Assembly (NCBI GenBank): GCA_037176725.1 | Contig: JAZBRS010000049.1 | Coordinates: 14,464,001 to 14,528,000 of the forward strand | Source: Posidonia oceanica | Lineage: Eukaryota > Streptophyta > Magnoliopsida > Alismatales > Posidoniaceae | DNA length: 64,000 nucleotides | Direction of reading: 5' to 3' | In this document: positions 4,593 through 60,790 of the stretch, in pieces | Layout of the letters: each line of letters opens with the position of its first letter | Position numbering within the stretch: the first letter of the stretch is position 1 | Program-made: the position numbers and the translations under genes | Notes under the pieces: generated by a model | The model's database searches: none | Told to the model about the DNA's origin: nothing | The model's input: only the letters and a program-made list of their open reading frames with translations

Positions 4593-4610
4593 TGGCGACT
4601 CTGCTGGGGA
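4593..4610 (+). promoter_or_regulatory. Primer-binding site of element A
   Basis: TGGCGACTCTGCTGGGGA begins two bases after the LTR end. It is complementary, apart from one base as far as I recall the tRNA, to the 3' end of a plant tRNA-Arg including CCA. tRNA-Arg priming is typical of Ogre/Tat elements. The same sequence follows LTR1 and LTR2 of element C. Confidence 0.85.
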
Positions 4611-5697: not shown

Positions 5698-7561
5698 ATG
5701 GCCCAGCATACCAGTGAGCCTCCTTCCTCATTGGTGTCAGGAGAGTTGTCGACTTCGGTCTCTCCTTCCCTTGCTTTGGCATCCCCCGTCTCCTCTCCAC
5801 TTCTGGTGCAGGAGACCTCCCAGCCCCTTTATCTGGATCAAGGATCAACCCTAGCCGACCTGGAGCTTGTCACCGAGTCTGCCGCGGTGACCGCCACTTG
5901 GGCTCCAGGAGCGTCGCCTCCTGTTCCGTCCCAGAGCCTTCCCGTATCGGGAATCTAGCCTTCTGTGGCTACCCTTCGCGTAGGATCCACTCCTGTTGCT
6001 TCCTTGGCTTCCACGCCTCCTTTGGTGGACACCTCTTCGCATCCCGGCTTGTCGGTCAATGCGTTCTCTGCCTCGCAAGCACAGCGCTTATTGGCTAAGG
6101 CCGATAGGCTGCGAAGCATGGCTCTCGCACTCGACTCGACTGTGGCCTGCTCTTCCCATTCAACCCCTGAGGTTCCGGTGCCGCCCTCAGTAGCCCTGCA
6201 GGTGCACTACACTGCACCCCCGCCCATTCCATCGCCTCGGCTCCTCACGGACTCGGCGATGGGGGTGCATTTTCAGCCTCCTGCACCTGCACAGCACCTT
6301 GCACTACATGCAACTCCTTCCTCTGGTGGCTAGTCTTCTGGATTGGCAGGAGCACAGCACCCCTCAAGCCCGTTGCCTGGCACCGTGCCAGTGCAACAGC
6401 TGCTGCTTCCCCGCACTGCACCTTACACTACACAGCATACTATCTATCCATCTTCCTTGCATCAGGTTCAGACTCTTGCATACATAGCACCGCACTTTGC
6501 ACCCTCGCATGGGTATGCTGGCCCTCACGCTACAACACCAGGTGGCGTGACGGTGGATCCAGAGGAGCGCCCTCGCGCGACCTGCACAGCATACGTGGTC
6601 CCTGCCTCTGCTGCACAACCATCACCAGCAGCAGCCTCAGACACCTTCCTTACCAGGTTGGGTGATCTAGAGAGAGCACTTCGTCAAGTGCAAGGCCAAG
6701 ACCGCCAGTTTTACCAATTTCGCGACCTCTGTCTCTTTCCCGAGGCCGCACTCCTTTCGAAGTTTCGCATCCCAGACTTCGATAAATATGATGGTAGAGG
6801 CTGCCCCATCTCGCATCTGAAGGCATATTGCGGGGATCTTTCTCAGCTTCGGGCTGATGAAAGGCTCCTTATTCGCTTATTCTAGAAGAGTTTAACCGGT
6901 CCCGCGCTCAAGTGGTTCACATCCCTTGACACGGCTGCAGTTCAGACTTGGACTGGTCTTTCCCGGGCTTTCCTTGAGCAATATGCTTTCAACCTCGACT
7001 TGATCCTCAAGATGGAGAATCTCGGTAGAGGCCCCAAGAGCCATTCAGGGAGTATGTCGGTCACTGGCGCTCCACAGCCGCCCAGGTCAAAGATAGGCCC
7101 TCCGAGGAGGATTTTATTGAGATGATCGTCAAAGGAGCGCTGCCAACGACTGGGACTCTGCTTTGCATCCAACACATCATTAGTTTTGCATCGCTGATTA
7201 GGGTTTGCGCCCGCGTGGAAAGCTCACTACAGAGTGGGCATTTCTCCACACTTTCTGCACTGGCTAGGTAGGCCGACAGCACCAGCAATCGCCTCAGCAG
7301 CAACAGTAACAACAACTCCACTTTCGACTGCTCCGAGCAGCACGCCGCCGCATGCGCTGATCCTCTTGAGGTGCCTGCCTTTGCAGAAAGTCTGCCAGAC
7401 CCTTTTCCGCTAGTGCCCGCACCTATTTATGCACCCACTGCACACACTGTCACCGTTGAGCCAGTGCATCACGTTGCACCAGCTCAGCAAGGACAACAGC
7501 CTAGGCAGAGACGAGTTTGCTGTGCTAAGAGCGACTTCACCCCACTTGGTGAGCCACTAAG
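5698..7561 (+). pseudogene. gag pseudogene of element A, 5' part, interrupted by element C
   Basis: The frame begins at ATG 5698 (MAQHTSEP) and aligns to the C Gag. A Pro/Ala/Gln-rich N-terminal part is followed by FRDLCLFPEAALL, the IPDFDKYDGRG block (near 6770-6800), LKAYCGDLSQL, and then the capsid-like region (SLTGPALKWF in C; the same residues here after the stop at 6883). It is broken by TAG at 5956, 6331, 6883 and 7269, each where Z or C has CAG. A small deletion near 7015-7045 shifts the frame. At 7561 it is split by the C insertion, and its codons resume in frame at 56117 once one CTAAG copy is removed. The product would have been the particle protein of the non-autonomous element. 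Confidence 0.88.
7557..7561. repeat. Left target-site duplication of the C array (CTAAG)
   Basis: CTAAG directly precedes TGTTGACACC of LTR1 and is repeated directly after LTR3 at 56112-56116. Removing one copy and the 48.5-kb insert restores a continuous alignment of A gag to C gag across the junction. Confidence 0.93.
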
Positions 7562-13202: not shown

Positions 13203-14509
13203 CGCTAGACTCCGGCTTTCGTTCCTGGCTTTTTGCTCGCCTGTTTTCGCAGTTTTGCCTGTCTTGTGTGCCTTCTTTGCCTGTTTTGCTCGCTTTTCTG
13301 TGCAAACTCCTAGAAAGTCGCTTTGTGGCTACTTTGCGTAGGTTTTGCACCTCTTTCGTCTCGATTTGCGCTCCCTTTCGCTTGGCTTTGCTTCTCTGCT
13401 TGTTTATTTACTTATTGTCTTGCTTATGCTCTTACTTCCTTTACAGCTTACTTGTCTTTATTTTCCTTGCCTTACTTGCTTATTACTGCTTTAGTTATCG
13501 CACATTGCATGTCTACATACTTGTTTGGCAACAATACATGCTTTTCGAATGTTGAATGCTTCTTTTACACCTTTGCTATGTCACTACGCACGCACATGCC
13601 TTGCATACATGCCTTTTGACTCGATGAATGTTTTTCTTCACCATTATGCTCACAAACACCTGCACATGCCATGCACTTGCCTTTTGTTTTGTTGTATGAT
13701 TGTCTGCCTACCATTCTTGACTGATTTTCTTCCCTTTCGCACATGCCGTGCCTAGGATAGTAGAAACTTGTTTGCTCTCCCCATGGTTAACTAAAAACCG
13801 CAAGTAAAAAGAACTCCTAGGAGCAACTAGAGACCCTGAACAATCCTTCACTCCCTCTGGTTAATAAAATGTGCAAGATAAAAGACTTTAAGCATTTGCA
13901 TAAGCATCATATAGGGCATGCATTCTTCTCATCTGAGTCCACCTATTAGTCTGCGAAGGACGGTCCCGGCTTCTTGTTCCACCGCTTTGGGCGTGGCACG
14001 AGCTAGTCGGTCTGTCCCCCCCTCGTCCGGGGGTCGTGTCGGTGTTAGTAGAGGGTACCACCCATGCTTTGGCGGGGTAGAGGCCACCAACGCACCACCC
14101 TGTCATTTCCTGAGCTTTGGGCCGGGAGTTAGACAGGGAACCTACTTTTCTGACCTGAGTCGGTGACCCGTACACCCAGGGATACCCGGAGTAGACAACC
14201 TTGCTAGGAAACACTAGTTAGGTAAGGGGGGCATACTAGAAAGCATGCATATCATTCATGCCATTTAACTAACTCATTTGCATTCATCTTTTAGCTTCTA
14301 ACCCTAATTTCCTTCTGTTGTGTCAGCGTGATCGGTAAGCGAGTTTCCCTTCGCTAGAGCTCGAGTATCGGCCCCCGTTGACACCCCTTTGCGACTTCAT
14401 TCGCGACCATTCCCCTTCCGAGCTATCTGCATTCGCGACGATAGCTCCTCTTAGGAAGCACCGCTTGAATACCCGTCGCAGCCCTGTTCTCACGCGATCT
14501 AGGTCAGCA
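13203..14509 (+). other. 5' leader of C copy 1
   Basis: Non-coding leader. Positions 13917-14160 are strongly conserved with the element A leader (5160-5400), including a C-run/G-run stem enclosing TCGTCC and the GGGTACCACCCATGC segment. The phrases TAGGATAGTAGAAACTTG (near 13754) and GGTTAATAAAA (near 13859) are also shared. A pyrimidine tract and TGTGTCAG near 14315-14326 occupy the place of the acceptor-like site seen in A and Z. Confidence 0.6.
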
Positions 14510-17500
14510 ATGACCCAGTACGTCAGTGAGCCTCTTTTCACTCTTGTCACGGAGGGTGTTTCCATTCCGGCCCCTCCGGTTGCTCCTTCTGTCCCCCTTG
14601 TTCCCCCTCCGACGCTAGGGTTTCCTCCCCTGACGTCTCTAGGTTCTCAGTACGTCCCGGGACAGTGGCAAGCATCTCTTCCTCCGGATCCGGTCGCCGA
14701 ATCCATCTTGACGACCGTTACTCGCGTTTCGGAGACGCCACTGCCCCCTCCATCCCAGGGATACGTCGCTCTCGACATCCCTTCCACCGTCGCTGCGACC
14801 TTTGCTGTAGAATCCTTCCCTCCCGGACAATCTGTGTCCGTGCCACTTGTTTCTCAGCCTTCGCCGGCACTGCACTTCAGTGTCCCCACTGGCGAGACGC
14901 TCGAAGCGCAGTACCAGCACCTGATGGAGCTTGCCCAGAAACTGCAGGGCATGGCTCTATCAGTTCGTCCTTCTTCTATTCCTGTCGTTCCTGAGGTTCC
15001 TCTGAGGCCAGTTCCTGCATTCCATGCATCGACCTCCACACCTCCGCCTCGACCATCGTCTCAACTGCTCACGGTTCCGACGATGGGGGCCCGTTTGCCG
15101 CCTCCTGCTGCACAACACTTGGCACAGCATGCTCCACTTCCCTCTGGTGGTCAGTCTTTTGGACCGGCTGGAGCCCAGTACCTCACTGGCTCGTTGTCTG
15201 GCACCCCGCCTGTACAGCAACTGGTGCTCCGTCATCCTACCCCTATCACAGCACAGCATGGCATCTACTCTTCTCCTCTGCATCAGGTCCAGCATCCTGC
15301 ATACACTCCTGCATACACAGTCCCCCAGCACGGATACGCCGGCCATCCCGTTGCTCCACTAGGCGACGCTATGGTAGATCCGGAGGAGCATTTAGGTGCG
15401 ACCCATTCGACGTATGTGCTCGCTACCCCTGCTGATCCCTCTCCTACAGCAGCAATCCCAGACCCCATCAATAACCGGATGGACGTCTTGGAGAAAGCAC
15501 TACGACTAGTGCAGGGTACTGAGCACCAGACCTACCAATTCCGAGACCTCTGCTGCTTTCCAGAGGCGGTACTCCCTCCGAAGTTCAAGATCCCGGACTT
15601 CGAGAAGTATAATGGTAGGGGCTGCCCCGTAGCACACTTGAAGGTGTATTGCGGTGATCTCGCTCAGCTTCAGGCTGACGAGAGGTTGCTGATCCGCTTG
15701 TTCCAGAAGAGTTTGACCGGGCCAGCACTCAAGTGGTTCACATCACTTGATATGTCAGCCATCAAGACTTGGAACGACCTCAGTCAGGCGTTCCTGGAGC
15801 AATACTCCTTCAGCCTCGATCTGGTCCCAAAGAGGGCGGACTTGATCGCAATCAAGCAGAATTCTGGCGAGCCGTTCGGGGAGTACGTCGGCCGCTGGCG
15901 CGCCCTTGCCTCTCAGGTTCGAGATAGACCCTCTGACGAGGAGTCTATCGAGATCGTTATCAAAGGGGCGCAGTCGTCTCTCGGAGCTCTGCTTAGCATC
16001 CAACCAGTCACTACTTTTGCGGCACTCATCAGAGCTGGAGCGCGCGTGGAGAGTTCTTTGCAGAGTGGCAACTTCCCAGCTCTCTCTGCGTTCGCTAAGC
16101 AGGCAGTGATCAGCAGCAACAGTGCCAACAGCAGCGCCTCCACCAACAACAATAGCGGCAGCAGCAACAACCGCCCGAAGAGGAAGGATTCGCCGAAACC
16201 CGCTGTTGCATTCGTCGACTCCTCTGCTGTGCCTGTTCGCTTGCCATCCTGGCCTGCCCCAGCTCAGATGGTGTACGCTCCTGCACCTAGGAATCCACAC
16301 ACACCACACATTACTACCACCGCTAGACCGGACTATCCTGCCGCACCGGTTCAGCAAGGCTCACACCCAAGGCAAAGAAGACCACCTACTGAGAGGCGTA
16401 GTTTCACCCCACTGGTGGAGCCGCTCACGGTCATCTTGCCGAAGGTTGCATCCCTCCTGAAGTTCCCGGAGGTTCGTCCGCCGCCAAGTCCTCTGCCGCA
16501 TTGGTTTAGGTCGGACCTCTTCTGCAATTTCCATCGAAGTGTCGGGCATTCGACAGACAATTGCTTCTCCCTGCGGAACGCAATTCAGGACTTGATCGAA
16601 TCGAGAACGATTGTAATCGACACGCACGAGGCATCCACTCAAGCACACACTCATGCATCTGCACACTCAGCTGTTCCCCCGCATTCTGGCATCGTCCGCC
16701 AACCTTTACCGGAGCACACTTATCCGGGAGGGGTGGGAACCTCAGGCATCCACTCTGTCTTTCCTTCTGGACCTGCTACCTCTGTAGTAGACCCTTCTGA
16801 TCTCATCTCTGACATCTCTGAGCCTTTCCCAGTCAGTCTCTATCTCGCGGCAGTTGCCGGCTCCGAGTCGGGAATTCACCTGATTCGACCGCGTGCCAGG
16901 CCGGAGCGCCCTCTCGCGCCTCCCACCGTGCTTCCCCAGGCTCAATCCCCTGTGCACCTCCTAGCTAGAGCCCAGCCTAGTTCTCCCATCCACCTTTTAG
17001 GGCGGCCTCAGTTACACCTTCTAGGCAGACCTCAATCTGCCCCAGCCTTCCCACCCCGACAACCATGCCCATTAGACAGACCGCAGTATCCAATAGGTCC
17101 CCCTGTAACCTCTCCTGTGCTCGCAGCACGTGTTCCAGTCGTCATTGATTTGACCCTAGACACCCATCGCGTCCCTTACAGCTACGCCACAGAGATGTGC
17201 GCGGAAGTAACGCAATCGGGGAGGGTTTACAGGCCCTCAACACCGGCAATTAGGCCAACTCCCCCTAGACCTGTTATGCCCCCACCCTCTAGTCAACCCA
17301 TAGTAGATCCAACTTCAGATCAGCCTGTAACTAGCCAAATCCCTATCCAGCCTGTAGTAACCCAGCTTCCTGCCACTACTCCCTCAGAACCTGCTAGAAT
17401 CACCCCTCCAGTTGCTAGAAGGAGCCAACCTAAAGCCAACTTGACCTCCCAGCTTAAGAAGGTCAAAGCCGACATTTCTATCTGGGACTTGATCCACACC

Positions 17501-20500
17501 TCTGCCGAACACCGCGAGGCTTTTCTTCGTGTGTTCCAGGCTGCCCGTGTGTCCCAGTCCATTGAGCCTTCTGCCTTGGAGAGCATGGTTGGGTTGATTG
17601 CGGAGCCCCAGGTCATCTCTTTTACAAGCGATGAGCTGCCTCCGGCGGGGATTAATCACAACCAGCCCCTATTCGTCACGATGCAGTTCAAAAACTTTCG
17701 CATTCCCCTAACACTGGTTGATAATGGGTCAGGCCTTAACGTCTGCCCCTTGCGTACTGCAACCAAGCTCGGATTCAAAGTCGAGGACATCACGCCAGCC
17801 GTGAAGGGAATGACAGCCTTTGACAACACTCACCATGACGCTCTAGGGGTTCTGATTATTCCTCTCGCTAATGGCCCGGTTGTCTTCGACGTAGAGTTCT
17901 ATGTCGTCGACTTGCAGCCGAACTTCAATCTTCTGCTTGGGCGCCCTTGGCTCCACAAGCATCAGGTCCTTCCTTCGACCCTCCATCGAATGATAAAGTA
18001 CCGTCGCGGCGACGATGTCATTGTCGTCATGGCGGAGAACTTTGAGAAGGAGCGGATCGAAGCAGTCTCCCCCGTGTCTTCGCAATCTATCCCATTTGAC
18101 CTCGAGACTTCTGAAGCCCTATATCGCGTTAATCGGTGCGAGCCGGTTAACTTCATTCCTGATCTTGAACGCATCAACTCCTTGACCGTTCACAGCAACT
18201 CCTTTCGAATGGTCGAGAATGTATGTCACAGGTGGGGTTACATAAAAGGTACGCCGCTCGAGCGTCACGGCCAGGGGATCGCAGAGCCGATCGTAGCAGT
18301 GGAGCAAAGGAAATCGGAAGGCCTCGGCTACGAGCCCAAGACCAACGAAGATCACTGCTTCCAGCTCAAGGACCATGCATCAGCCATTCCCAGAGACCTC
18401 ACTAACTTTACTAGTGCAGGAACCCTAGGGTCGACCTACGATCAAGACACGGTACCGACAGAGGATTGGGTGTGTGTTGAGGACTACTACTCGGATGAGG
18501 AGCAGTCTGGCACAACAGAGGCAGTCCCAACCAGCACAGCAGAAACAGTAGTCAGAGCAGAGGCCACACAGTCAATCTATTCAGCTCTTCCTCTGGTAGA
18601 AACAGCAGGCAGCTCAGCAGGCCCTGTGGCAGAACTGGCAAGTTCCCACTCTTTTGCAGCCACATCAGCTTCCCAAGTACAGACAGCAGCAGTGCAGGAG
18701 TCAGAGACACTCCTTCTGGCAGAACCAAGCATGCTACCAGCGGTCACAGAAACATCAGTGCCACTGTCCCTATCTCTGGAGGGGCAGTTAATCAATACAG
18801 TCAACAGCGCGGCTCAGCCCGCTTCAGCATCCACATCTCCAGGAATGCAGCAGGCGCAGTCCGCTTCGCATCCTCCTGACAACCAGCAACAGCTCTCATG
18901 GCAAGACCCCATGGCGTCAGAGGCTGCACTCTCTCAGTTACGGCCCGATACAAAAGGCCAACTGAGCACTACACTCTCCGGACCCTTGAGCCCTCTGAAG
19001 AGCACCCCTGCTTACTCTCCAACAGTGACCCTGGCAGCATATCCATCTATGGCACCGCTGACTTGTCTATTTGGGCCTTCTACATCAGAGTTGCCACCAT
19101 CGGACGCGCCCGTGAACCAGATCATGCAGATTCCAAGGGCAGCAATCCGTCTTGCAGCCGGGCCAGTGCCGCAGGCCCCCGGCGCCTACTACGTCGACTC
19201 CCCCTCGGACGAGGAAGAAGGAGTGGCGATAGAAGCCCAGGTCGATTCTTGGATGTCTGACTTAGAGCTGCTCTATCAAGAACAAATCAAGTCGATAGCA
19301 GAAGACCTGGCAGAGCATCAAGCCACAGAAAGGAAAGGGAAAGCCGTGGTTACGGACCCTCCTCTGCAAGAAGACCATGCCTCTATCATGGTCCTGGAAG
19401 AAGACTCAGCAGCACCGGACTCCCCTAGACCAGATGAGCTCATCACTCTTCAACCAGAAGGCGGGTCTAGGTGGTTTGTGCAACCCATGCCTCACTTGAG
19501 TAGTATATCGAGCGGCAGTGCTCAGATCAACCACCAGTCCGGCATATCCTCTGCAGGCACACTAGAAGACCCAGAGGGGGAAGCATCAGCAGTTCATGCA
19601 GCAGCAGTAACAGAGCAGAAAGCAGAATCAGTAACAGAACTGTCAGCAGCCTCAGCGGCAGAACAGTCAGCAGCATCAACAGCAGAATCAGCAAGACCCT
19701 CAGTAGAATCAGCAAAGCACTCAGCAGAATCAGTCAGGCCAGAGCAAACAGCAGAAGGAGTTGCTGAGACGGAGGTCGCGCACCGAGGCTACAAGAACAC
19801 TAGAGTAAGCGTGACCATCCTGAAGCATCACCAGGGCCAAGCAGCGGAACACATGCACTCTTTCGACATCACAAGCCCTTCCTTTGAGAAAGAGATCCTC
19901 TCGGAACTTATTGCTTATGGAGAGGAGGATGATACGGGCATGGATGAGACTGATGAATCATTGCCCGAGTTCCGGCCCTATGACGACGACCCAGAAGGCC
20001 CCAACCTCCATGTTGAAGAAGAAACAGAGGTTGTCAACATCGGCACAGCTGAGGAAGTCAGAGAAGTTCGTATCAGTGCCCAGCTGTCCTCCCAGGCTCG
20101 AGCAGAGTTCATCGCATTCCTGAAAGAATATGCGGATGTCTTCGCCTGGAGTTACGAGGATATGGTCGGCCTTGACATAGAAGTAGTGGTGCACAATCTG
20201 CCCTTAAACCCGGATGCCAAGCCAGTGAAGCAGAAACTAAGAAGATGGAGACCACAGTGGCTGCTCATGATCAAAGGAGAGATAATGAAGCAGCTCAGGG
20301 TCAACTTTCTGAAGGTCGTTCTTTATCCTGAATGGTTGGCAAATATTGTACCTGTGCCCAAGAAAGATGGCCGAATCCGGATCTGCATCGACTACAGGGA
20401 CCTGAACAAGGCGAGTCCCAAGGACGACTTTCCATTGCCTCACATTGATGTCCTAGTCGACAATACAGCGGGCCACAAGATGCTCTCCTTCATGGACGGC

Positions 20501-22702
20501 TTTTCTGGATACAACCAAATCAAAATGGCAGAAGAAGACATGGAAAAGACTTCATTCATCACCCCTTGGGGAGTCTTTTGCTACCAAGTCATGCCGTTCG
20601 GCGTGAAAAATGCTGGTGCAACCTATCAGAGGGCCATGACTGCACTGTTCCACGACCTCATGCACCAAGAAGTAGAGGTCTACGTAGACGACATGATTGC
20701 TAAAAGCAAAGAGCCTGAAGATCATCTTACCTGTCTCAAAAAGCTCTTTGACCGTCTACGGAAGTACAAGCTGCGCCTGAATCCCAAGAAGTGCGTATTC
20801 GGGGTGTCTTCTGGCAAATTGCTCGGCTACATTGTTAGCCAAAGGGGGATTGAGGTGGACCCATTGAAAGCACAAGCTATCGTGGACATGCCACCCCCCA
20901 GGACTGAAAAAGAAGTCAGAAGTCTGCTTGGGCGTTTACAATATATCAGCCGCTTCATTGCACAGCTTACGCCCATCTGCGAGCCCATATTCAAGCTCTT
21001 GAAGAAGAATGCGCAGATTCACTGGAGCGAGGAGTGTCAGGCTGCATTTGCCAAGATCAAGCAGCTGCTGATCAAGCCTCCTGTCCTGGTCCCGCCTACA
21101 CCAGGGAGACCTTTGCTTCTCTACCTTTCTACCACGCAGCATTCCATGGGCGCCGTCTTGGGCCAACATGACGAATCTGGTAGAAGGGAGCGCGTCATCT
21201 ATTACCTGAGCAAGAAGTTTAATGAATGCGAAGCCAGGTACAGTACACTAGAGAAGACCTGTTTGTCCCTTGTCTGGGCTGCACAGAAACTAAGGCACTA
21301 CATGATGGCATACCCAGTACAGCTCTTATGCCGGCATGATCCTATCAAGTTCCTTTTCCAAAAGCCAGCCATGGTGGGCAGATGTGCTAAGTGGCAGGTG
21401 TTATTGTCTCAGTACGACATCACCTTTGTCACACAGAAATCCATGAAGGGTCAGGCCATGGCAGACCATCTTGCTGACCATCCTCTGCCTGAATACCAAC
21501 CCCTCAAGACACAGTTCCCTGATGAAGACATTCTCTTTGCAATGGAGGACTCTGAGCAGAAAGATCCTGAGAAACAAGAGGAATGGCAGCTCTACTTTGA
21601 TGGTGCAGTCAACAAAAAGGGCCGAGGCGTAGGCGCAGTGCTGACCACGCCCCAGGGACAGATGATTCCCTTCGCGAGGAAGCTGACTTTCGCATGCACA
21701 AACAATGAAGCGGAATATGAAGCATGCATCCCAGGGTTGAAAGTCGCCCTCGAACATGAGGCGCAGAAGCTGCATGTGCACGGTGATGCCATGCTGGTAA
21801 TTTCTCAAGTGAACGGCGACTGGAGGACAAAAGACCCCAAGCTTGTGCCGTATCACGAACACCTACTGAGGCTGATGGAAGAATTTGAGAGCATCTGCTT
21901 CACATACATGAACAGAGCCAAGAACGCGTATGCAGACGCACTAGCAACCCTGGCATCCTGGCTCACCATTTCAGAAGATAGCACAGTGGATGTATCAGTC
22001 GCTCGCATCGAGCAGCCTGCATACTGCATGAGCATAGAAGAAGCGGATCCAGCAAAGGGGCAACCCTGGTATCAAGATATAAAATCCTTTCTGGAGTCTG
22101 GTAGCTTTCCTCCTGATACCACGGCAGTAGACAAGAAAACTTTGGCGCGTCTGGCGTCAAAGTATGTGTTGGGGGCTGGGCAGCTGTACAGAAGGTCATA
22201 CAATCAGATGCTACTACGCTGCCTGAACAAATCGGAGGCTGACACGCTGATGCTCCAAGTGCATGCGGGGACCTGTGGCCCGCACATGAACGGCGTCCTC
22301 CTGGCCAAGAAGATTATGCTTCAAGGATATTTCTGGCAGACCATGGAAGCCGACTGCTGCCGGTTCGTGCGTAGATGCCACAACTGTCAGATTCATGGTA
22401 ACTTCATCAAGGCCCCTCCACATCAGCTGCACAACATGTCTTCGCCATGGCCTTTCTCCACCTGGGGGATCGATGTCATTGGCGCCATCCACCCTGCTGC
22501 TTCAATTGGTCATCGTTACATTCTGGTAGCGATCGATTACTTTACCAAGTGGGTGGAAGCAGCCTCTTACAGAACAGTCACCGCTGTGGCAACAGAAAAA
22601 TTTATCAGAAACAATATCGTTGCCCGATATGGGGTCCCGCACTCAGTCATCTCTGATAATGGCACAAACTTCATTGCCAAAAGGATCGAGGAATACCTGT
22701 AG
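14510..22702 (+). CDS. gag-pol: Gag-protease-RT-RNaseH-integrase polyprotein, C copy 1 (ends at a TAG inside integrase)
   Basis: The frame is open upstream to 14378, but the first ATG is 14510 and its MTQYVSEP matches the gag start in A and Z. Residues counted from there: Pro/Ala/Gln-rich N-terminus; Gag block FRDLCCFPE at 344; capsid-like domain about 398-500; zinc knuckle C672-H675-H680-C685; aspartic protease with D1071 in VDNGSGLNV; a G-patch-like stretch about 1241-1275; a long Ala/Ser/Glu-rich linker; reverse transcriptase about 1920-2085 with D1996 (FMDG) and Y-V-D2060-D2061; a first RNase H-like domain (about 2200-2300) lacking the usual first Asp; a second RNase H with D2364, E2402, D2426, D2476; integrase zinc site H2585, H2592, C2623, C2626 and core D2655, D2716. 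The frame ends at TAG codon 2731, before the catalytic Glu. The double RNase H marks the Tat lineage. The protein would copy its RNA in cytoplasmic particles and insert the DNA in the nucleus. Confidence 0.95.
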   Translation: MTQYVSEPLFTLVTEGVSIPAPPVAPSVPLVPPPTLGFPPLTSLGSQYVPGQWQASLPPDPVAESILTTVTRVSETPLPPPSQGYVALDIPSTVAATFAVESFPPGQSVSVPLVSQPSPALHFSVPTGETLEAQYQHLMELAQKLQGMALSVRPSSIPVVPEVPLRPVPAFHASTSTPPPRPSSQLLTVPTMGARLPPPAAQHLAQHAPLPSGGQSFGPAGAQYLTGSLSGTPPVQQLVLRHPTPITAQHGIYSSPLHQVQHPAYTPAYTVPQHGYAGHPVAPLGDAMVDPEEHLGATHSTYVLATPADPSPTAAIPDPINNRMDVLEKALRLVQGTEHQTYQFRDLCCFPEAVLPPKFKIPDFEKYNGRGCPVAHLKVYCGDLAQLQADERLLIRLFQKSLTGPALKWFTSLDMSAIKTWNDLSQAFLEQYSFSLDLVPKRADLIAIKQNSGEPFGEYVGRWRALASQVRDRPSDEESIEIVIKGAQSSLGALLSIQPVTTFAALIRAGARVESSLQSGNFPALSAFAKQAVISSNSANSSASTNNNSGSSNNRPKRKDSPKPAVAFVDSSAVPVRLPSWPAPAQMVYAPAPRNPHTPHITTTARPDYPAAPVQQGSHPRQRRPPTERRSFTPLVEPLTVILPKVASLLKFPEVRPPPSPLPHWFRSDLFCNFHRSVGHSTDNCFSLRNAIQDLIESRTIVIDTHEASTQAHTHASAHSAVPPHSGIVRQPLPEHTYPGGVGTSGIHSVFPSGPATSVVDPSDLISDISEPFPVSLYLAAVAGSESGIHLIRPRARPERPLAPPTVLPQAQSPVHLLARAQPSSPIHLLGRPQLHLLGRPQSAPAFPPRQPCPLDRPQYPIGPPVTSPVLAARVPVVIDLTLDTHRVPYSYATEMCAEVTQSGRVYRPSTPAIRPTPPRPVMPPPSSQPIVDPTSDQPVTSQIPIQPVVTQLPATTPSEPARITPPVARRSQPKANLTSQLKKVKADISIWDLIHTSAEHREAFLRVFQAARVSQSIEPSALESMVGLIAEPQVISFTSDELPPAGINHNQPLFVTMQFKNFRIPLTLVDNGSGLNVCPLRTATKLGFKVEDITPAVKGMTAFDNTHHDALGVLIIPLANGPVVFDVEFYVVDLQPNFNLLLGRPWLHKHQVLPSTLHRMIKYRRGDDVIVVMAENFEKERIEAVSPVSSQSIPFDLETSEALYRVNRCEPVNFIPDLERINSLTVHSNSFRMVENVCHRWGYIKGTPLERHGQGIAEPIVAVEQRKSEGLGYEPKTNEDHCFQLKDHASAIPRDLTNFTSAGTLGSTYDQDTVPTEDWVCVEDYYSDEEQSGTTEAVPTSTAETVVRAEATQSIYSALPLVETAGSSAGPVAELASSHSFAATSASQVQTAAVQESETLLLAEPSMLPAVTETSVPLSLSLEGQLINTVNSAAQPASASTSPGMQQAQSASHPPDNQQQLSWQDPMASEAALSQLRPDTKGQLSTTLSGPLSPLKSTPAYSPTVTLAAYPSMAPLTCLFGPSTSELPPSDAPVNQIMQIPRAAIRLAAGPVPQAPGAYYVDSPSDEEEGVAIEAQVDSWMSDLELLYQEQIKSIAEDLAEHQATERKGKAVVTDPPLQEDHASIMVLEEDSAAPDSPRPDELITLQPEGGSRWFVQPMPHLSSISSGSAQINHQSGISSAGTLEDPEGEASAVHAAAVTEQKAESVTELSAASAAEQSAASTAESARPSVESAKHSAESVRPEQTAEGVAETEVAHRGYKNTRVSVTILKHHQGQAAEHMHSFDITSPSFEKEILSELIAYGEEDDTGMDETDESLPEFRPYDDDPEGPNLHVEEETEVVNIGTAEEVREVRISAQLSSQARAEFIAFLKEYADVFAWSYEDMVGLDIEVVVHNLPLNPDAKPVKQKLRRWRPQWLLMIKGEIMKQLRVNFLKVVLYPEWLANIVPVPKKDGRIRICIDYRDLNKASPKDDFPLPHIDVLVDNTAGHKMLSFMDGFSGYNQIKMAEEDMEKTSFITPWGVFCYQVMPFGVKNAGATYQRAMTALFHDLMHQEVEVYVDDMIAKSKEPEDHLTCLKKLFDRLRKYKLRLNPKKCVFGVSSGKLLGYIVSQRGIEVDPLKAQAIVDMPPPRTEKEVRSLLGRLQYISRFIAQLTPICEPIFKLLKKNAQIHWSEECQAAFAKIKQLLIKPPVLVPPTPGRPLLLYLSTTQHSMGAVLGQHDESGRRERVIYYLSKKFNECEARYSTLEKTCLSLVWAAQKLRHYMMAYPVQLLCRHDPIKFLFQKPAMVGRCAKWQVLLSQYDITFVTQKSMKGQAMADHLADHPLPEYQPLKTQFPDEDILFAMEDSEQKDPEKQEEWQLYFDGAVNKKGRGVGAVLTTPQGQMIPFARKLTFACTNNEAEYEACIPGLKVALEHEAQKLHVHGDAMLVISQVNGDWRTKDPKLVPYHEHLLRLMEEFESICFTYMNRAKNAYADALATLASWLTISEDSTVDVSVARIEQPAYCMSIEEADPAKGQPWYQDIKSFLESGSFPPDTTAVDKKTLARLASKYVLGAGQLYRRSYNQMLLRCLNKSEADTLMLQVHAGTCGPHMNGVLLAKKIMLQGYFWQTMEADCCRFVRRCHNCQIHGNFIKAPPHQLHNMSSPWPFSTWGIDVIGAIHPAASIGHRYILVAIDYFTKWVEAASYRTVTAVATEKFIRNNIVARYGVPHSVISDNGTNFIAKRIEEYL

Positions 22703-24607: not shown

Positions 24608-25948
24608 ATGCATATGGAACTACTTTATCAGCCTCGGTTTCTGTTTATTGTCAAAAAATATACGCCTGCGAGATCTGACTGTTTATTGATAGCAGGTACT
24701 TTCAAGCTTTTGCAGCTATCTGCCTGTCCCTCTGCAATCAGCGTAATGGGCTTTCCTACTCTGCTAACTCCTGCACACTGCTCGGAAGCCCTGCGAGAAT
24801 GGATCAGCAGGCTCACTCTACAAGATTGTGAACAGCTGCGCCTGTGGGGCATACCAACCAAGCTGCTGAAGGCCGCTGATGTGGAGGTCAGCCGCCACCT
24901 TCTGTGTGCCGCCGCAAGATTCTGGAAGCCGGCGCATCATGTCTTCCGTTTCAACAAGACTGAGCTGACACCTACACTGGAAGAGGTGCGTCGGATCTGC
25001 GGCTTTTCAAAGATCATGGGGCCACCTATTTTCATGAGGCGCGACGGATACCTCCAGGTCCTGAGCCAGCTAACTGGGCTCCCCACTCGAACCTGTCAAC
25101 AGAAACTAATCTGCACCAGCGGGCCTGAACCTATGCTTCGCCTTGCGCACTTCGATGATATCTTGAACAAGCGCGCAGAACTCGGAGATGAGCTGTGGCT
25201 CCGAGGATTTGTTATCCGCTTCCTGGGCGAACTGATCTTCACCCATGGCCGACTGACAGTGGCCATCGAGGTTGCAGAGATTGCATTAGCAGTGGTGACC
25301 CAACACATAGACCTTGCACCAGTTGTCCTGGCAGAGACCTATCGCGGGCTGGACCGCATCTCTCATCGCTGCCGCCACTTCCACGGTTGCGGAGCACTCA
25401 TACAAGTCTGGCTAACCGCACACTTAGAAATGGACCTTCTGCGCCCTCAAGTGCATGCCTTTGAAGCCTACTGCAGCAGCGCCCGTGCCAAGACAGAAAA
25501 GAGCGTCAAAGAAGAATACGAGAGGCTGTCAGCACTGACTGATGACGCTATAACCTGGCGTATTGTCCCCTCTGCAGCAGAGCCATTCACTGTCTTCTTC
25601 AGCGCGCGTGACATGCGGCTGATCATTCTTCCAGGTTTCTCAGCAGGCGTAGAGTACCATCCAATAAGGGTCATGCGCCAGTTCGGCTTCCGGCAGGGTG
25701 CCTCCATTGACAGTACAGCGCCCCAGCTTCTACAGATGTACCCTCTCAGCACAACTGCCCCAACCAAGAAGCTTGCTAGTCTGATGCAGCATGGGGTCCA
25801 ATCTACAGACATTGCAGCTGTGAGAGGTGTAGGATGCACCCCTGAATATGAAGCTGGAGTCCGACAGCTCTGGCCTATCACTGAAATTCCGCCAGGCAGC
25901 CCTTTGTTTCCCGACTCCCGGCAGTCGAAGAAGGCCCGAGTTGACTAG
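24608..25948 (+). CDS. Second ORF of element C, plant-mobile-domain-like protein, copy 1
   Basis: A 446-codon frame on the same strand as gag-pol, 1.1 kb after it. The first ATG is 24608; the Met at 24746 (MGFPTLLTPAH) is a likelier start because the residues before it look unstructured and a TTTGCAG lies just upstream. The centre (residues about 105-134), FWKPAHHVFRFNKTELTPTLEEV, matches the F-W-x-P...F-x-F...E-L-T-P-T-L-E-E signature that I recall from plant-mobile-domain-like (DUF7745-type) proteins and from extra ORFs of Ogre/Tat elements. Those extra ORFs usually lie before gag, or antisense after pol. The end is basic (SKKARVD). The molecular function is not established. Few changes separate it from copy 2. 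An alternative is a captured host gene. Confidence 0.75.
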   Translation: MHMELLYQPRFLFIVKKYTPARSDCLLIAGTFKLLQLSACPSAISVMGFPTLLTPAHCSEALREWISRLTLQDCEQLRLWGIPTKLLKAADVEVSRHLLCAAARFWKPAHHVFRFNKTELTPTLEEVRRICGFSKIMGPPIFMRRDGYLQVLSQLTGLPTRTCQQKLICTSGPEPMLRLAHFDDILNKRAELGDELWLRGFVIRFLGELIFTHGRLTVAIEVAEIALAVVTQHIDLAPVVLAETYRGLDRISHRCRHFHGCGALIQVWLTAHLEMDLLRPQVHAFEAYCSSARAKTEKSVKEEYERLSALTDDAITWRIVPSAAEPFTVFFSARDMRLIILPGFSAGVEYHPIRVMRQFGFRQGASIDSTAPQLLQMYPLSTTAPTKKLASLMQHGVQSTDIAAVRGVGCTPEYEAGVRQLWPITEIPPGSPLFPDSRQSKKARVD

Positions 25949-26252: not shown

Positions 26253-26421
26253 CATCCTCCTCAGCTGATCATCCCCAGCTGAGTCCCCTGCGGGCTGGCA
26301 CCCCAAACTGCTCGGCGAAAGGTCCGTCAACCTGTCATCCTCCTCAACTGATCATCCCCAGCTGAGTCCCCTGCGGGCTAGTACCCCAAACTACTCGTCT
26401 GACAAGCACGACAATCTTGTC
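26253..26421 (+). repeat. Duplicated two-hairpin cassettes, C copy 1
   Basis: Two copies of a segment that starts with CAGCTGATCATCCCCAGCTG and continues GAGTCCCCTGCGGGCT. Each then has a short hairpin: GGCA (26297) with TGCT (26309), and AGTA (26380) with TACT (26392). In the second copy a further hairpin follows: GACAAG (26401) with CTTGTC (26416). This is the same cassette found repeatedly in element A. Confidence 0.75.
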
Positions 26422-26459
26422 ATCTCCCTCTGCTTTCGATGCCAAGGACGCGTTGGCCA

Positions 26460-26488
26460 GCCCCTGGTGTCATCCTGACACCAGGGGC
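26460..26488 (+). repeat. Perfect 13-bp hairpin, C copy 1
   Basis: GCCCCTGGTGTCA, loop TCC, TGACACCAGGGGC, followed by ATCTTTTG. An upstream GATGCC (near 26439) is complementary to the GGCATC at the 3' foot. Element A has a counterpart at 58932-58961 with a compensatory G-C to A-T change. Confidence 0.9.
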
Positions 26489-26564
26489 ATCTTTTGATCG
26501 CCCTTTGGTATCATTCTTCCCCTCTTTCCCCTATGATATTCCTGGTGTCATAGGATGATTTCTT

Positions 26565-27640
26565 CTCATCATTACCTCATCCCCTCTTTGCCGGCCGATA
26601 AGTCCGATATCTTATCAACCAATCATTCTCATCATTACCTCATCCCCCTCTTCTTCTCATCATTACCTCATCCCCTCTTTGCCGGTCGATAAGTCCGATA
26701 TCTTATCAACCAATCATTCTCATCATTACCTCATCCCCCTCTTTATCTCATCATTACCTCATCCCCTCTTTGCCGGCCGATAAGTCCGATATCTTATCAA
26801 TCAATCGTTCTCATCATTACCTCATCCCCCTCTTTATCTCATCATTACCTCATCCCCTCTTTGCCGGCCGATAAGTCCGATATCTTATCAACCAATCATT
26901 CTCATCATGATCTCATCCCCCTCTTTAGCAGTAATTCTCATCATGATCTCACCCCCTCTTTAGCAATAGTTCTCATCATGATCTCATCCCCTCTTTAGCA
27001 ATAGTTCTCATCATGACCTCATCCCCCTCTTTATCTCATCATTACCTCATCCCCTCTTTGCCGGCCGATAAGTCCGATATCTTATCAACCAATCATTCTC
27101 ATCATTACCTCATCCCCCTCTTTATCTCATCATTACCTCATCCCCTCTTTGCCGGCCGATAAGTCCGATATCTTATCAACCAATCATTCTCATCATGATC
27201 TCATCCCCCTCTTTAGCGGTAGTTCTCATCATGATCTCATCCCCCTCTTTAGCAATAGTTCTCATCATGATCTCATCCCCACTTTAGCAATAGTTCTCAT
27301 CATGATCTCACCCCCTCTTTAGCAGTAATTCTCATCATGATCTCATCCCCCTCTTTAGCAGTAATTCTCATCATGATCTCATCCCCCTCTTTAGCAATAG
27401 TTCTCATCATGATCTCATCCCCTCTTTAGCAATAGTTCTCATCATGATCTCACCCCCTCTTTAGCAGTAATTCTCATCATGATCTCATCCCCTCTTTAGC
27501 AATAGTTCTCATCATGATCTCATCCCCCTCTTTAGCAGTAGTTCTCATCATGATCTCATCCCCCTCTTTAGCAATAACTCTCATCATGATCTCATCCCCT
27601 CTTTATCTCATCATGATCTCATCCTCTCTTATCAAACAAT
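26565..27640 (+). repeat. Tandem arrays with GATAAG hairpins and 36-bp CATCATGATCTCATC units, C copy 1
   Basis: Six units carry GATAAG-N8-CTTATC (first at 26597-26616) in a roughly 90-bp frame with TCATTACCTCATCCCC. They are interspersed with and followed by about 15 units of a 36-bp pyrimidine-rich repeat whose core is TTCTCATCATGATCTCATCC and whose tail is CTCTTTAGCAATAG. Units vary by 1-2 bases. A hypervariable tandem-repeat 3' region is known for Tat-lineage elements. Confidence 0.92.
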
Positions 27641-28475
27641 CAATCACATTCTAGGCTGATATCCGAAACTATCAAACAATCAAGCACTCTCAGGCTGATA
27701 ACCTAAACTATCATCTAGGCCGATCCATGGTTGGCCCACAGTTGTGTTATACGGCTGACATCCAGTAACTGTCCCTTCCAATTGCGGTTTCCAGTTGATA
27801 GGACTGTAAACTATCGTTAGGCTGATATCTTAAACTATCACCAGCAATTGCATTATACGGCTGATATCCAGTAACTATCCCTCATCATTGCGCGTTTCCA
27901 GTTGATAGGTCTGTAAACTATCTGCCAGTTGATAGGTCTGTAAACTATCCGCCAGTTGATAGGTCTGTAAACTATCCGCCAGTTGATAGGACTGTAAACT
28001 ATCACGCGCAATCATGTTATACGGCTGACATCCAGTAACTGTCCCTCGCAATGCCGTTTCCAGTTGATAGGACTGTAAACTATCCTCCAGTTGATAGGTC
28101 TGTAAACTATCCGCCGGTTGACAGGACCGTAAACTGTCGCTCCAGTTGATAGACTGTAAACTATCCGGCATTTGCGTTATACGGCTGATATCCAGTAACT
28201 ATCACTCATGGTTTGTGGCTTCCAGTTGATAGGTCTGTAAACTATCCGCCGGTTGATAGGTCTGTAAACTATCCGCCAGTTGATAGGTCTGTAAACTATC
28301 CGCCAGTTGATAGGACTGTAAACTATCCCACACAACCATGTTATACGGCTGATATCCAGTAACTATCACTCACAACTGCTTCCGGTTGACAGGACCGTAA
28401 ACTGTCATTCCAGGCTGATAACCTAAACTATCACTCCCGGTTGATAGGACCGTAAACTATCCGGACGATAAGCCC
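27640..28475 (+). repeat. Covarying hairpin array, C copy 1
   Basis: Roughly two dozen units of about 27 bp. Two related forms alternate: GATAG-N9-CTATC (e.g. 27797-27815) in CCAGTTGATAGG contexts, and GATA-N9-TATC (e.g. 27863-27879) after TTATACGGCT. Whenever the left arm reads GACA(G) the right arm reads (C)TGTC: 27757/27770, a second TTATACGGCT-type unit near 28027, 28120/28134 and 28388/28402. I found no unit with one arm changed alone. The last unit is GATAAG/CTTATC near 28464. Confidence 0.92.
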
Positions 28476-28960
28476 GTCACCTTATCACCTTTTTTGGCGT
28501 GACCTCGTCCCAGGAAGGCAAAGTCACGCAAACCCCTTTTGCGATAGGAGAATTGGCCTCTCTCCCCTTGCGCCTTTTTTCTTTTTTGCTAGCTTGCTCC
28601 CCGGGCGGGGACAGGCTGCACCCTGTTTTTCCCTCGCTTTGTCGCGCAAGTCTGGCCTCCCTGCCAGATCCTTGCGCCACATCGCGCCTTTTTATCATTC
28701 CTCTTACATCATCTTAGCACCTCCTCAGCTAGCACTGCATATTACTTTAGCATCATCGCTATCACTTGCACAGCATCAGCATCTATTCTAGCTGCACTAA
28801 CTTTTATGCTAACTTCTTGCATTGCATTTGCATTAGCATGCATCGCACTTAGCATCATCCATCTGCACCTAGCATCTTGCATTGCGGCAACGGGCTGCGA
28901 TCTTCGGTGCATCCGCCGAATAAGTAGCTCAAGCCCATAGCAACCCGCTGCTCCCGCCGG
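28476..28960 (+). other. 3' end region of C copy 1 before the polypurine tract
   Basis: GC-rich then AGCAT/GCATT-rich DNA with no gene. From about 28870 it aligns to the same place in element A (60625 onward), sharing CGGTGCATCCGCCG and AGTAGCTCA-like text. Confidence 0.6.
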
Positions 28961-47898: not shown

Positions 47899-47936
47899 AT
47901 CTCCCTCTGCTTTCGATGCCAAGGACACGTTGGCCA

Positions 47937-56111: not shown

Positions 56112-56116
56112 CTAAG
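56112..56116. repeat. Right target-site duplication of the C array (CTAAG)
   Basis: Exact repeat of 7557-7561, directly after the terminal CA of LTR3. Confidence 0.93.
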
Positions 56117-56435
56117 CATCGTCTTTCTCCAGGTTGTGTCGCTTCTGAGGCTTCCGGAAACTCGCCCGCCACTAAATCCCCTTTCGAGGTGGTACGATGC
56201 GAGCAAGTATTGCGATTACCATCGAGCCCCAAGGCATTCGACGGATAATTGCCTCACTCTCTGGGATGTCATTCAGGACCTAATTGACAATGGGACCCTC
56301 GTCGTCAGTCCGCAGGAGGCTGCTCACACACTTGCACTTGCACCTGCACATCCTAGCGTAGCTGGCCCTTCCTCTTCTGAGCCTGTGGGCTTCGAGGATG
56401 CCAGAACCTCGGGGGCTTACCCCAATCTTCTTTGA
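56117..56435 (+). pseudogene. gag pseudogene of element A, 3' part with zinc knuckle
   Basis: Continues the A gag frame broken at 7561. The protein aligns to C Gag around LLRLPETRPPL and then the nucleic-acid-binding knuckle CDYHRAPRHSTDNC, whose C-X2-H-X4-H-X4-C spacing matches C (where the knuckle is C672-C685). After LIDNGTLVV the similarity fades and the frame ends at TGA (56433-56435). No protease or polymerase follows. The knuckle is intact despite the stops upstream, which fits recent loss of a gag that was once useful. Confidence 0.85.
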
Positions 56436-56844
56436 ATCCAGCTCTACCCCAGTGGGTCCATCCGATCCCATCGGCACAATCCCCTCTTCCTATCTCTCCC
56501 TGTTTGTCCGGGGGATGCTCGGAAGTGCAATGGCGGAATCAACAGCAAGCTCAGTCCCAACACCGTCCAGGTAAGCTCCTTCTCTAGCATCAGCAGCCCC
56601 AGTGCTCCCTGCACTGCCAGCAGCAGATCTCACCGACAGCATCAGCAGCATAGGGGCAGACGCAGCACTTCCCTCCTGAGATCGCTAACAGGTAAGTCCC
56701 TCTTACCTCTCTTTTGTTTCCTGCACTGTCTTTTCTTTTCGTTTTTGTTTTGTTTTTTCATTTTCTTGCCATGTCAAAAATCATAAAAAGCATAAAAAAC
56801 AGCAAACACCCTAAAAACCTGCATTTCTTTTTTTGCATGCATTC
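56436..56844 (+). other. Element A, region after gag
   Basis: CAGCAG-rich DNA followed by T- and A-rich text, no gene. Two sequences resembling splice donors lie at about 56570 (CAGGTAAGC) and 56690 (CAGGTAAGT). The pol region of C has no counterpart here. Confidence 0.55.
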
Positions 56845-57000
56845 ATCATCACTAGGCTGATACCCCTAATTATCCGACGATAGGTCCGTTAACCTATTAC
56901 CACTGGGCTGGCAGCCCTAAATGCTCGACGATAAGTCCATCAACTTATCATTCGGGCTGATATCCCTAACTATTCGGCGATAAGTCCATCAACTTATCAC
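56845..57000 (+). repeat. Two-hairpin cassettes of element A, first group
   Basis: Three cassettes. First: GATA (56859)/TATC (56871) then GATAGGT (56879)/ACCTATT (56892). Second: GGCA (56910)/TGCT (56922) then GATAAGT (56930)/ACTTATC (56943). Third: GATA (56959)/TATT (56971) then GATAAGT (56979)/ACTTATC (56992). The loop of the second hairpin is CCRTYA throughout. Confidence 0.85.
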
Positions 57001-58434
57001 CTGCACATATCAATCACTTTGCATGCATATCCATCATCCTGCACATATCTGTCATCATGCATTGTCATTTATCGCATGTACATATCATTTCTTGCATCCT
57101 GTAAAGCATAAAGCCAAAAAAATCAAGAAAATAAAAAGCAGCAAAAATATTTTCTTCGCCTTTCTGCTGGTTTTCCCTTTTATGTTTTCCTAAACAAAAA
57201 TCATAAAAATACAAAACCAATGCAAAATCCAAAAACATGTTTGTCCTTTCCCCTGCTAAAATATACAAAACCCACAAACATTTTCATAATCAGAAACCAG
57301 CCTTGGACAAACAAGCAGCGCCTAGAGGATGTCAAGCAATGACAGTCTCAGGCAGGTCTCACCCGAGCAGCGCCATCTCTTGCATGTGGCTACAGAGTGA
57401 GACTAGAGTAGAACAGAGCGACTCGCTGAGCACAATGCTCCCAACGCGAGATCCACCTTAACCAGAGAGTCCACCAAATATGGAGAGGACCAAAGCAGAG
57501 CAGAGCATAGCCAGAGGCTGTCGACACATTGCAGAGGCTGAGGGTATACGCCGATCAGCCGAACGCTCAACGCCTCATCCGGGACTGCTACCCCAAGAGG
57601 GCGAAGACATGCATATCCAAAAGAATAGAGGTCATGTGAGCAAAAGAAATGACAACATGATATGCATGTTGAGCACAAAAGAAAAACGCAGAAAGAAGTT
57701 GAAGAAAGAAGGCGGTCATGAGAGGAGTGACTCGGACGAGTGTCGAAGCCACCTCAGCTATCAGCTTCAAGTGCCACACTGGCAACTGCATGAGATACAC
57801 TATTAGGAGGACTTGGCCCCACCCTTCGAGTGCAGCAGCACGCTCCAATCGCCTCTGCAGACATCTCTACACCCTTGGCAGGCTAGATGCAACTCCAGTC
57901 ACTCATGAGGGGAAAAGAAACATCATTCTGTGAGCGTCAAAAGCGGTAGCTGGTCCCCGAAGAATTGAGACGGAGGCTAAGAAGTTGCATCCAACGCTTC
58001 TGCTACCCTGTAGCCGAAGACTATACTCTGCAAAGCCAAGGCCTCATCCCGAACCAAGAGTGAGAAAGAGAGCTGTCGACCACAACTCGGCATGGCGTCT
58101 CTCGAGGATCGAGATCTCCTGAGTCAGGGACTGCAGGAACACCCTCATGGCATAGCTGCTTTGAGTCCAAAGCCACCAAAACATGCATGCTGTAATATAT
58201 TTTTATCTTCTTCCCTTCTCCCTGTTTTCGAAAACCGGAGCCAAGGACGAGCACTTTTGCCTGCCTCGCTCAGAGGCTCCGCGATTTTCAAAATTTGCCA
58301 TCCACCGCGTGGGTAGGTCCGTGATGACCGGCATGTACCTCGTTTGTCACCTCGTGAAGCCACGAAGCGTGCCCACGTTGAGACCATTGCACGCCAATCA
58401 TGATGGGTTTCCTGTTTCCTTTCTGCATCATTCT
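57001..58434 (+). other. Element A, unassigned internal region
   Basis: AT-rich to about 57300, then mixed composition. No frame shows retrotransposon motifs. GAAAACCGGA near 58219 resembles the stretch after pol in C (23477 onward), suggesting that A lost pol by deletion and resumes here; this is weak. Confidence 0.4.
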
Positions 58435-58910
58435 GCATCCGCGTTGGCAGCCCTAACTGCTCGGTGATGGGTCCGTCAACCTATCATTTTATTGTGCCAT
58501 CATCTCTGCATCCGGGCTAGCAACCCTAACTGCTCGGCGATGGGTCCATCAACCTATCATTTTATCATGCTATCATTTCTGCATCCGGGCTGGCAGCCCT
58601 AACTGCTCGGCGATGGGTCCGTTAACCTATCACTTTGCATTCCTCTACATCGGGTTGGTAGCCCTAACTGCTCGGTTGATGCCCGTTAAAATGTCATCCT
58701 GCATATCTGCGTTGTATTCGGGCTGATATCCCCAACTACTCGGCGATAAGTCCGTTAACTTTTCACCCTGCATTTGCATTATTCCATTGCATCCCCCACC
58801 GTCATTGCACTTCGAATGGTGAGCCCTTACATCCATCTCATTGCATTCGGACTAGTAGCCTTAACTACTCGGCTGACAAACCCGTCAGTGTTGTCTCCGC
58901 CTTGCATTTT

Positions 58911-58964
58911 GATGCCAGGGGCGCTTCGGCTGCCCCCTGGTATCTCACCGATACCAGGGGCATC
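58911..58964 (+). repeat. Three-arm hairpin of element A with two exclusive pairings
   Basis: Arms: GATGCCAGGGGC (58911-58922), GCCCCCTGGTATC (58932-58944), GATACCAGGGGCATC (58950-58964). The middle arm can pair with the first (CCAGGGGC/GCCCCCTGG) or with the third (11 bp), not both. It corresponds to the 26460-26488 hairpin of C. Confidence 0.75.
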
Positions 58965-59027
58965 TTTATTTAGCTGCCCCACGGTATCCCATTTTCATCT
59001 GCATTTGGGCTGACATCCCTAACTGTT

Positions 59028-59077
59028 ACGGGAGCGTCTACGAACCTCTGCCATACCTTCGGGTATGGTATTCCCGT
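59028..59077 (+). repeat. Hairpin with a TTCG tetraloop
   Basis: Outer stem ACGGGA (59028-59033)/TCCCGT (59072-59077). Inner stem CCATACC (59051-59057)/GGTATGG (59062-59068) closed by TTCG with a C-G closing pair, an exceptionally stable RNA loop type. Confidence 0.7.
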
Positions 59078-59250
59078 TGCATTCGTGGTTACAAGTTATC
59101 CCCCTTGTAATCACTCCTCTTGCTTGACAGACTCGCTGGCCTGTCATCGTTTGTGGGCTGATAGCCCCAACTATCCGGTGGTGAGTCCGTTAACTCCCCG
59201 CAGGCTGATAGCCCTAACTATCCAGCGATAGGTCCATTAACCTATCACCC

Positions 59251-60620: not shown

Positions 60621-60790
60621 CATTTGCATTGTGGCATTGAGTCATGATTTCCGGTGCATCCGCCGGATAAGTGACTCACGTCCACAGCAATTTGCACTCC
60701 TGCCAGCGTTAGGTAGGGTGTCTTGTCTACCCTGAGTAGCAGTCTCACTACGCTTGACCTCACTCAGGGAGGGGCATCTGTAGACACCCC
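60621..60790 (+). promoter_or_regulatory. Polypurine tract inside a conserved hairpin, element A
   Basis: AGGGAGGGG at 60766-60774 precedes GCATC-less spacing of four bases to the LTR, as in C. Stem CCCTGAGT (60730-60737) with ACTCAGGG (60762-60769). Upstream GTCTAC (60725-60730) complements GTAGAC of this LTR (60780-60785), where C has GTCAAC and GTTGAC. Confidence 0.8.

Follow-up and report, generated by a model that had tools for sequence, protein, structure and literature searches.

What kind of module is repeated in front of the 3' long terminal repeat (LTR) of two retrotransposons that lie one inside the other in the 2.96 Gb genome of Posidonia oceanica? The question arises from a stretch of 64,000 nucleotides, called the window below (assembly GCA_037176725.1, contig JAZBRS010000049.1, positions 14,464,001 to 14,528,000 of the forward strand), in which element C is inserted within element A. 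A reading of the letters of the window, referred to here as the original prediction, had described in element A a repeated cassette of two small hairpins with compensatory changes, had found the same cassette in element C and had taken it for an RNA module used by both, which Gag might recognise. The evidence presented here strongly supports pairing of the hairpin stems in the sense strand. As to function, we tentatively propose, at a little short of an even chance, that the sense-strand hairpin arrays, many of their units being likely pseudoknots, may serve as cis docking sites on genomic RNA, most likely for Gag.

Direct reading of the sequence recovered every stem that had been claimed, both for hairpin 1 (GATA/TATC, AGCA/TGCT, AGTA/TACT, GGCA/TGCT and GACA/TGTT) and for hairpin 2 (GATAAGT/ACTTATC, GATAGGT/ACCTATC, GATGGGT/ACCTATC and GACAA/TTGTC). 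Element A carries 12 cassette units within 56853-59250, which fall in two blocks (56853-57002 and 58440-59250), the array being discontinuous; the cassette claimed for element C was confirmed there as two units, 26291-26340 and 26374-26425. Hairpin 1 stands in frame in all 12 A units, with one A.C mismatch in the unit at 58719, and in both C units. Hairpin 2 keeps its standard frame in nine of the 12 A units, takes a variant geometry at 58651 and 58848 and has no standard form at 59006. The C unit at 26291 has one A.G mismatch, and that at 26374 has the GACAAG/CTTGTC form. The mismatches had been described as mostly G-U, and the counts bear this out, with 13 G.U against four others in hairpin 1 of the 14 units and standard hairpin 2 of 10 units. 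The cassettes do not lie in U3, the region to which the original prediction had referred, but in the internal 3' region; the C array sits between the last open reading frame (ORF) and the 3' LTR.

Pattern counts placed the cassettes far beyond chance. With up to three mismatches allowed, the hairpin-2 pattern had 24 matches in the window, compared with 0.05 expected. Exact hairpin-2 cores numbered 39,187 in the whole genome and exact matches to a sister unit 372,179, with no match to the reversed control in either case, and the four unit patterns together gave more than 600,000 exact matches. A covariance model had been proposed as a check and was built from 41 of the 63 usable cassettes at other loci (model R1). 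At E values up to 1 it gave 42 matches in the window, all of them within the A or C 3' regions and 41 on the plus strand; the sole minus-strand match (E 0.048) lay inside the A array. All 17 window matches at E < 1e-5 were on the plus strand. The first and third A cassettes (56853 and 56953) scored 62.1 and 74.7 bits, respectively, the second (56904) being without a separate listing.

The stems of the two hairpins were paired in 96.7% of cells across the 41 cassettes, compared with 21-43% in slid registers. The compensatory changes that had been claimed were found again in this set: 40 cells were changed on both sides of the stem against 12.2 in shuffles, and none of the 500 shuffles reached so high a count, while two of the five covariation measures were weaker (35/500 and 56/500 shuffles). 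The strand in which the pairing is kept was indicated by wobble pairs. The most variable pair of hairpin 2 was, genome-wide, G.U at 10,649 places and A.C at 315 (34 to 1), with a pattern that treats both alike; among the 100 places listed out of the 39,187, the same pair was G-C in 34, A-T in 25, G.T in 39 and A.C in two. A set of 73 distinct cassettes (six from the window) was obtained from the 74 of 93 pattern matches that were kept for a loop ending in TTA or TCA. In this set, G.U was counted 41 and 45 times in the two hairpins and A.C 10 and seven times (86 versus 17 in sum), the hairpin-1 counts being drawn from the 67 of the 73 rows in which its frame holds. The search pattern for these cassettes passes G.T but not A.C without penalty at one hairpin-2 pair (29-42); the pair used in the genome-wide test and hairpin 1 are free of that bias. 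When positional orthologs were compared across 21 elements, hairpin 2 had as its second pair G-C in two, A-U in nine and G.U in 10, with no A.C. A strand-blind process would give as many G.U as A.C pairs, so the ratio of 10,649 to 315 points to pairing in sense RNA. The loop-flank pairs of the same 73 cassettes showed the opposite bias (G.U 20, A.C 54), and the mutation spectrum alone thus does not make the G.U excess. On these sequence patterns, the excess suggests that it was the pairing of sense RNA, and not that of duplex DNA, which was kept.

A second stem was suggested by the bases that flank the hairpins. In the C-type array, each hairpin is preceded by one or two pyrimidines, and the three bases ahead of these match the first bases of the hairpin loop. 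The predicted second stem has three base pairs, stands one or two nucleotides before the hairpin arm and is followed by a stretch of 3-6 nucleotides that is often A-rich. The motif GGGCT...CTCGG, noted beside hairpin 1 in the original prediction, does exist as a flank, but it is better read as the 5' arms of this second stem; a flank acting as a pseudoknot arm is likely in C-type units and unsupported within A-type ones. Among 12 hand-chosen unit classes, 11 were fully Watson-Crick in the second stem (permutation p 5e-6); the permutation p on unit classes was 9e-5 for the eight distinct types and 7e-4 without the rarest. Flank and loop changed together between classes as GGG/CCC, AGG/CCT, TGG/CCA, CGG/CCG, CAG/CTG and CGT/ACG.

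The class with the loop CCNAAAC comprised 61 units from nine of the 11 C-type arrays searched. Its outer position paired in 51 of the 61 units, with all four Watson-Crick kinds, against a maximum of 36 in 5000 shuffles, and in eight of the 13 distinct rows (p 0.0056). Among the first 100 of 170,381 genome-wide matches, the outer pair was Watson-Crick in 72, again of four kinds, compared with a mean of 40.7 and a maximum of 58 in 20,000 shuffles. Seventeen of the 28 non-Watson-Crick pairs were G.A, each after a T, so that a one-base slide could pair, with the caveat that T also precedes 54 of the other 83 units. The GATGA subclass (29,545 matches) had, among the 100 matches listed, T-A in 78, C-G in 17, T.G in three and C.A in two. 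The inner pair, followed through the orthologs of the 21 elements, was T-A in seven, G-C in four, G.U in three, U.G in two, A-T in one and G.A in four; standard pairs thus occurred in 17 of 21 (p 0.0016; Watson-Crick alone, p 0.007), the variation being mostly the split between A-type and C-type. For the middle pair of the second stem in the GATAG unit, of which three states were counted genome-wide, G-C was found at 99,852 places, A-T at 177,871 and A.C at 9,667.

The proposal of an RNA module common to A and C is well supported by the sense-strand G.U excess, the stem covariation and the matches of model R1. The accompanying claim, that the fold and not the sequence is conserved, did not hold: loops, flanks and order are conserved too, which argues for common descent and not for a fold kept without sequence. 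The A and C copies are both then followed by the same GATGCC...GGCATC hairpin, and they look like positional orthologs by descent.

The families that keep the array were compared in 28 fetched loci (18 A-type and 10 C-type), which were searched with pieces of the C proteins (tblastn, E up to 1e-4). Gag was found upstream of the array and on the same strand in nine of the 18 A-type loci and in element A of the window; the distance from gag to the array was about 1.0-1.6 kb in eight A-type loci and 2.8 kb in L020. Reverse transcriptase, RNase H and the second RNase H had no match in the 28 loci or in either A half of the window. Integrase matched only in the C-type locus L029 and on the opposite strand of L037, with no match in the A halves. 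A match to the Plant mobile domain was present in eight of the 10 C-type loci, seven on the array strand and upstream of it and one (L040) on the opposite strand. By this search, the A family looks gag-only, without detectable pol; as the copies have aged and decayed and the fetched stretches are short, the missing pol is no proof for the founder. A cis-acting element would be expected to be retained in this way by a gag-only family, and a cis-acting role of the array is likely.

A number of results weigh against arrays of pseudoknots that form in sense RNA. The unit copies are related to one another, hence there were far fewer events than the counts suggest. The predicted folding energy of 50 nucleotides was lower on the minus strand in 48 of the 73 cassettes, and for the hairpin-1 core it was lower on the minus strand in 44 against nine, with 20 ties; for the hairpin-2 core the strands stood at 36 to 37, with the mean slightly lower on the plus strand. 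We read this pattern as probable loop effects in the predicted energies, and it lends no support to a sense-strand advantage. That the 50-nucleotide energy does not favour the sense strand would suit hairpins that are DNA palindromes only (slippage tandem repeats, cruciform-prone DNA or transcription factor sites) and have no RNA role. We hold this to be very improbable, as strand symmetry then predicts equal numbers of G.T and A.C, against the 34 to 1 observed genome-wide, and as the flank-loop positions of the same cassettes are biased the other way. As regards the second stem, the 21 orthologs had A.C in seven cases, contributed by the two pairs other than the inner one, and G.U in five, and A-type cassettes were paired in 87.8% of cases versus 87.6% in shuffles, with no covariation and with more A.C (54) than G.U (20). 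For the commonest C-type unit, 145 units gave 35 distinct rows, which had 10 G.U and 10 A.C pairs and contained 83 Watson-Crick cells, compared with a shuffle mean of 76.4 and a maximum of 88, and only the middle pair had p < 0.05 (0.03). A blind pseudoknot descriptor gave 28 sites (plus) versus 20 (minus) in the C 3' region and 24 versus 25 in that of A; it was dropped, being too noisy and finding about as many sites on the minus strand. The stems may also be real without forming any pseudoknot, in which case the GG ahead of the hairpin and the loop CC would be protein contacts inherited by descent. The A-type units without second-stem covariation and the weak signal in the distinct rows of the commonest C-type unit are consistent with this, and the several matched flank and loop changes between classes argue against it; we regard it as possible, while leaning to the other side. 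A second stem is likely for the C-type units and unsupported within the A-type, and the probability that many units are H-type pseudoknots in RNA is about one half. The wider reading is evenly balanced, namely that the 3' repeats would be minimal H-type pseudoknot arrays, a multivalent RNA domain common to an autonomous family and its gag-only partner.

If the arrays are docking sites, their units would act in cis, repeatedly, on genomic RNA, and the array would form a multivalent platform of RNA, for which Gag, during packaging, would be the most likely reader. Element A, without detectable pol, would have to be mobilised in trans; it keeps the array nevertheless, which suggests that the array is probably needed in cis. 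Among the candidate readers we place Gag first, since gag is what the A family retains besides the array, with nuclear export as a close rival and translation or stability in third place. The remaining nine of the 18 A-type loci, which had no gag match in the fetched stretch, count against this reading. The array could instead serve the export of unspliced genomic RNA from the nucleus, with a host export factor as its reader, in the manner of the mouse MusD MTE and IAP RTE, which promote export of unspliced RNA through NXF1 (PMC12786077). The position of the C array downstream of the last ORF agrees with export, which A and C would presumably both need; against it, the unit stems diversify between subfamilies more than might be expected with a host reader, and we consider export unlikely. 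A 3' enhancer of translation or stability, like the tobamovirus upstream pseudoknot domain or an exonuclease-resistant RNA (xrRNA), is improbable. The three-pseudoknot domain of tobacco mosaic virus (TMV) does interact with eEF1A and has roles in replication and translation (PMC4683447), but Rfam gave no match in the whole window at the gathering threshold and no sense-strand match in the two 3' regions at E up to 5. Its five weak matches in the C 3' region were all on the minus strand and belonged either to xrRNA class 3 or to one of three families of small nucleolar RNA, and the A 3' region had no match; xrRNA class 3 (RF04326), the only plant-virus family among them (E 1.1), was rejected at 19.2 bits versus a gathering threshold of 31. 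ARAGORN found no tRNA gene in the window, although viral tRNA-like forms may escape it.

Among known systems, the 3' regions of Tat/Ogre/Retand elements agree with the present case in kind of element and in location; their tandem repeats, which differ from one family to another, stand between pol and the 3' LTR (PMC7004042, PMC6317226, PMC11963269). Those repeats are described as hypervariable and as a satellite source, whereas the repeats found here are structured units. In some plants such 3' repeats seed satellite DNA, and according to the Retand paper their origin and function remain unknown. Among the papers listed in our literature searches, none was seen to report hairpins, pseudoknots or a conserved fold of the RNA for Tat/Ogre elements or for LTR elements of plants. 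The MTE and RTE are likewise structured cis RNA of LTR elements, the MTE with a pseudoknot, but as described there they are not arrays of many small units, and they are likened here by description, not by sequence. The TMV domain has consecutive small pseudoknots in a 3' region, such as are predicted here for C-type units; there are three of them upstream of a tRNA-like structure, whereas here many units lie upstream of a polypurine tract. The pseudoknot of Ty1 (PMC5454406) is needed for efficient retrotransposition of that element and differs in being a single long-range one at the 5' end. In Tat-type elements, the repeats that separate pol from the 3' LTR are described as being of unknown function; an array of docking sites would give them a role, and the stem covariation together with the 34 to 1 wobble bias makes the question of function directly testable. 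If the reading is true, this region would be an RNA machine under selection, and structured RNA units would be the starting point of satellites that grow from such repeats.

Element C (7562-56111) is a tandem of the form LTR-internal-LTR-internal-LTR, with three LTRs, two internal regions and 99.4% identity between the two tandem units, as in a recombined or tandem retrotransposon. Element A has LTRs at about 1339-4569 and 60778-64000+, and internal parts at 4570-7561 and 56112-60777. A blastn comparison of the A and C LTRs gave a single match, roughly over the last 640 bases, at 75%. A second RNase H (aRH) that follows RNase H and precedes integrase is a criterion for Ogre and common to Retand, and an extra ORF with a Plant mobile domain is present in 57% of Ogre elements (PMC6317226). 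Both features were found in element C. In its gag-pol ORF, Pfam placed RT_RNaseH at 2255-2359, RVT_3 at 2420-2538 and the zinc domain of the integrase from position 2630 on. Having a second RNase H is compatible with Ogre as well as with Retand, and the mobile domain favours Ogre; judged by domain content, this points to the Ogre clade of Tat Ty3/gypsy. The Plant mobile domain ORF had eight protein relatives in ENA (52-88% identity, 7995 candidates scored), and no relative of the reverse transcriptase was found among viral contigs. One search pattern, in which 17 letters were fixed, had 10 single matches that we judged to be chance, and two further patterns gave none, with no second species reached. 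Bases 1-1339 of the window are a 79% copy of the gag-side region of A, directly left of its 5' LTR; element A may itself be inserted in another related element.

Table 1. Features of elements A and C, with coordinates in the window.
Feature	Coordinates	Strand	Basis
A gag remnant, left of the C insertion	6715..7268	+	tblastn with C protein pieces
C gag-pol ORF: gag, reverse transcriptase, RNase H, second RNase H (RVT_3), integrase core	14339..22702	+	Pfam
C extra ORF with Plant mobile domain (PF10536, E 3e-20)	24608..25948	+	Pfam
C cassette c1; second C copy 47768-47817	26291..26340	+	model R1, 63.8 bits
C cassette c2, GACAAG/CTTGTC hairpin; flank CGT complementary to loop ACG; second copy 47851-47902	26374..26425	+	model R1, 33.3 bits
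C long hairpin, orthologous to that at A 58911-58964; G-C in place of A-T, both stem sides being changed	26438..26491	+	sequence
C array: six GATAAG..CTTATC units, CGG flank, CCG loop; second copy 48069-48654	26592..27177	+	pattern search
C array: GATAG/CTATC and GATA/TATC type units, candidate pseudoknots; second copy 49129-49967	27652..28490	+	pattern search, model R1
A cassettes a1-a3 (hairpin 1 + hairpin 2), starts 56853, 56904, 56953	56853..57002	+	direct reading
A cassettes a4-a8, starts 58440, 58513, 58586, 58651 (variant hairpin 2), 58719	58440..58768	+	reading and model R1
A cassette a9, hairpin 2 of type GACAA/TTGTC; positional ortholog of C 26374-26425	58848..58899	+	model R1, positional orthologs
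A long hairpin GATGCC..GGCATC, inner CCTGGTATC/GATACCAGG	58911..58964	+	sequence
A unit a10: hairpin 1 (GACA/TGTT), no standard hairpin 2	59006..59047	+	model R1, 24.8 bits
A cassettes a11, a12	59154..59250	+	model R1, reading

The long branched hairpin adjoins the last paired cassette in both A and C, and it was matched on the cassette strand in 15 of the 20 fetched loci L019-L038. The 3' half of this hairpin has a copy downstream that could take its place in the pairing, a possible switch. Element A also carries, at 59051-59068, a hairpin with a C(UUCG)G tetraloop, which was matched with at most two substitutions in 11 of 20 other loci.
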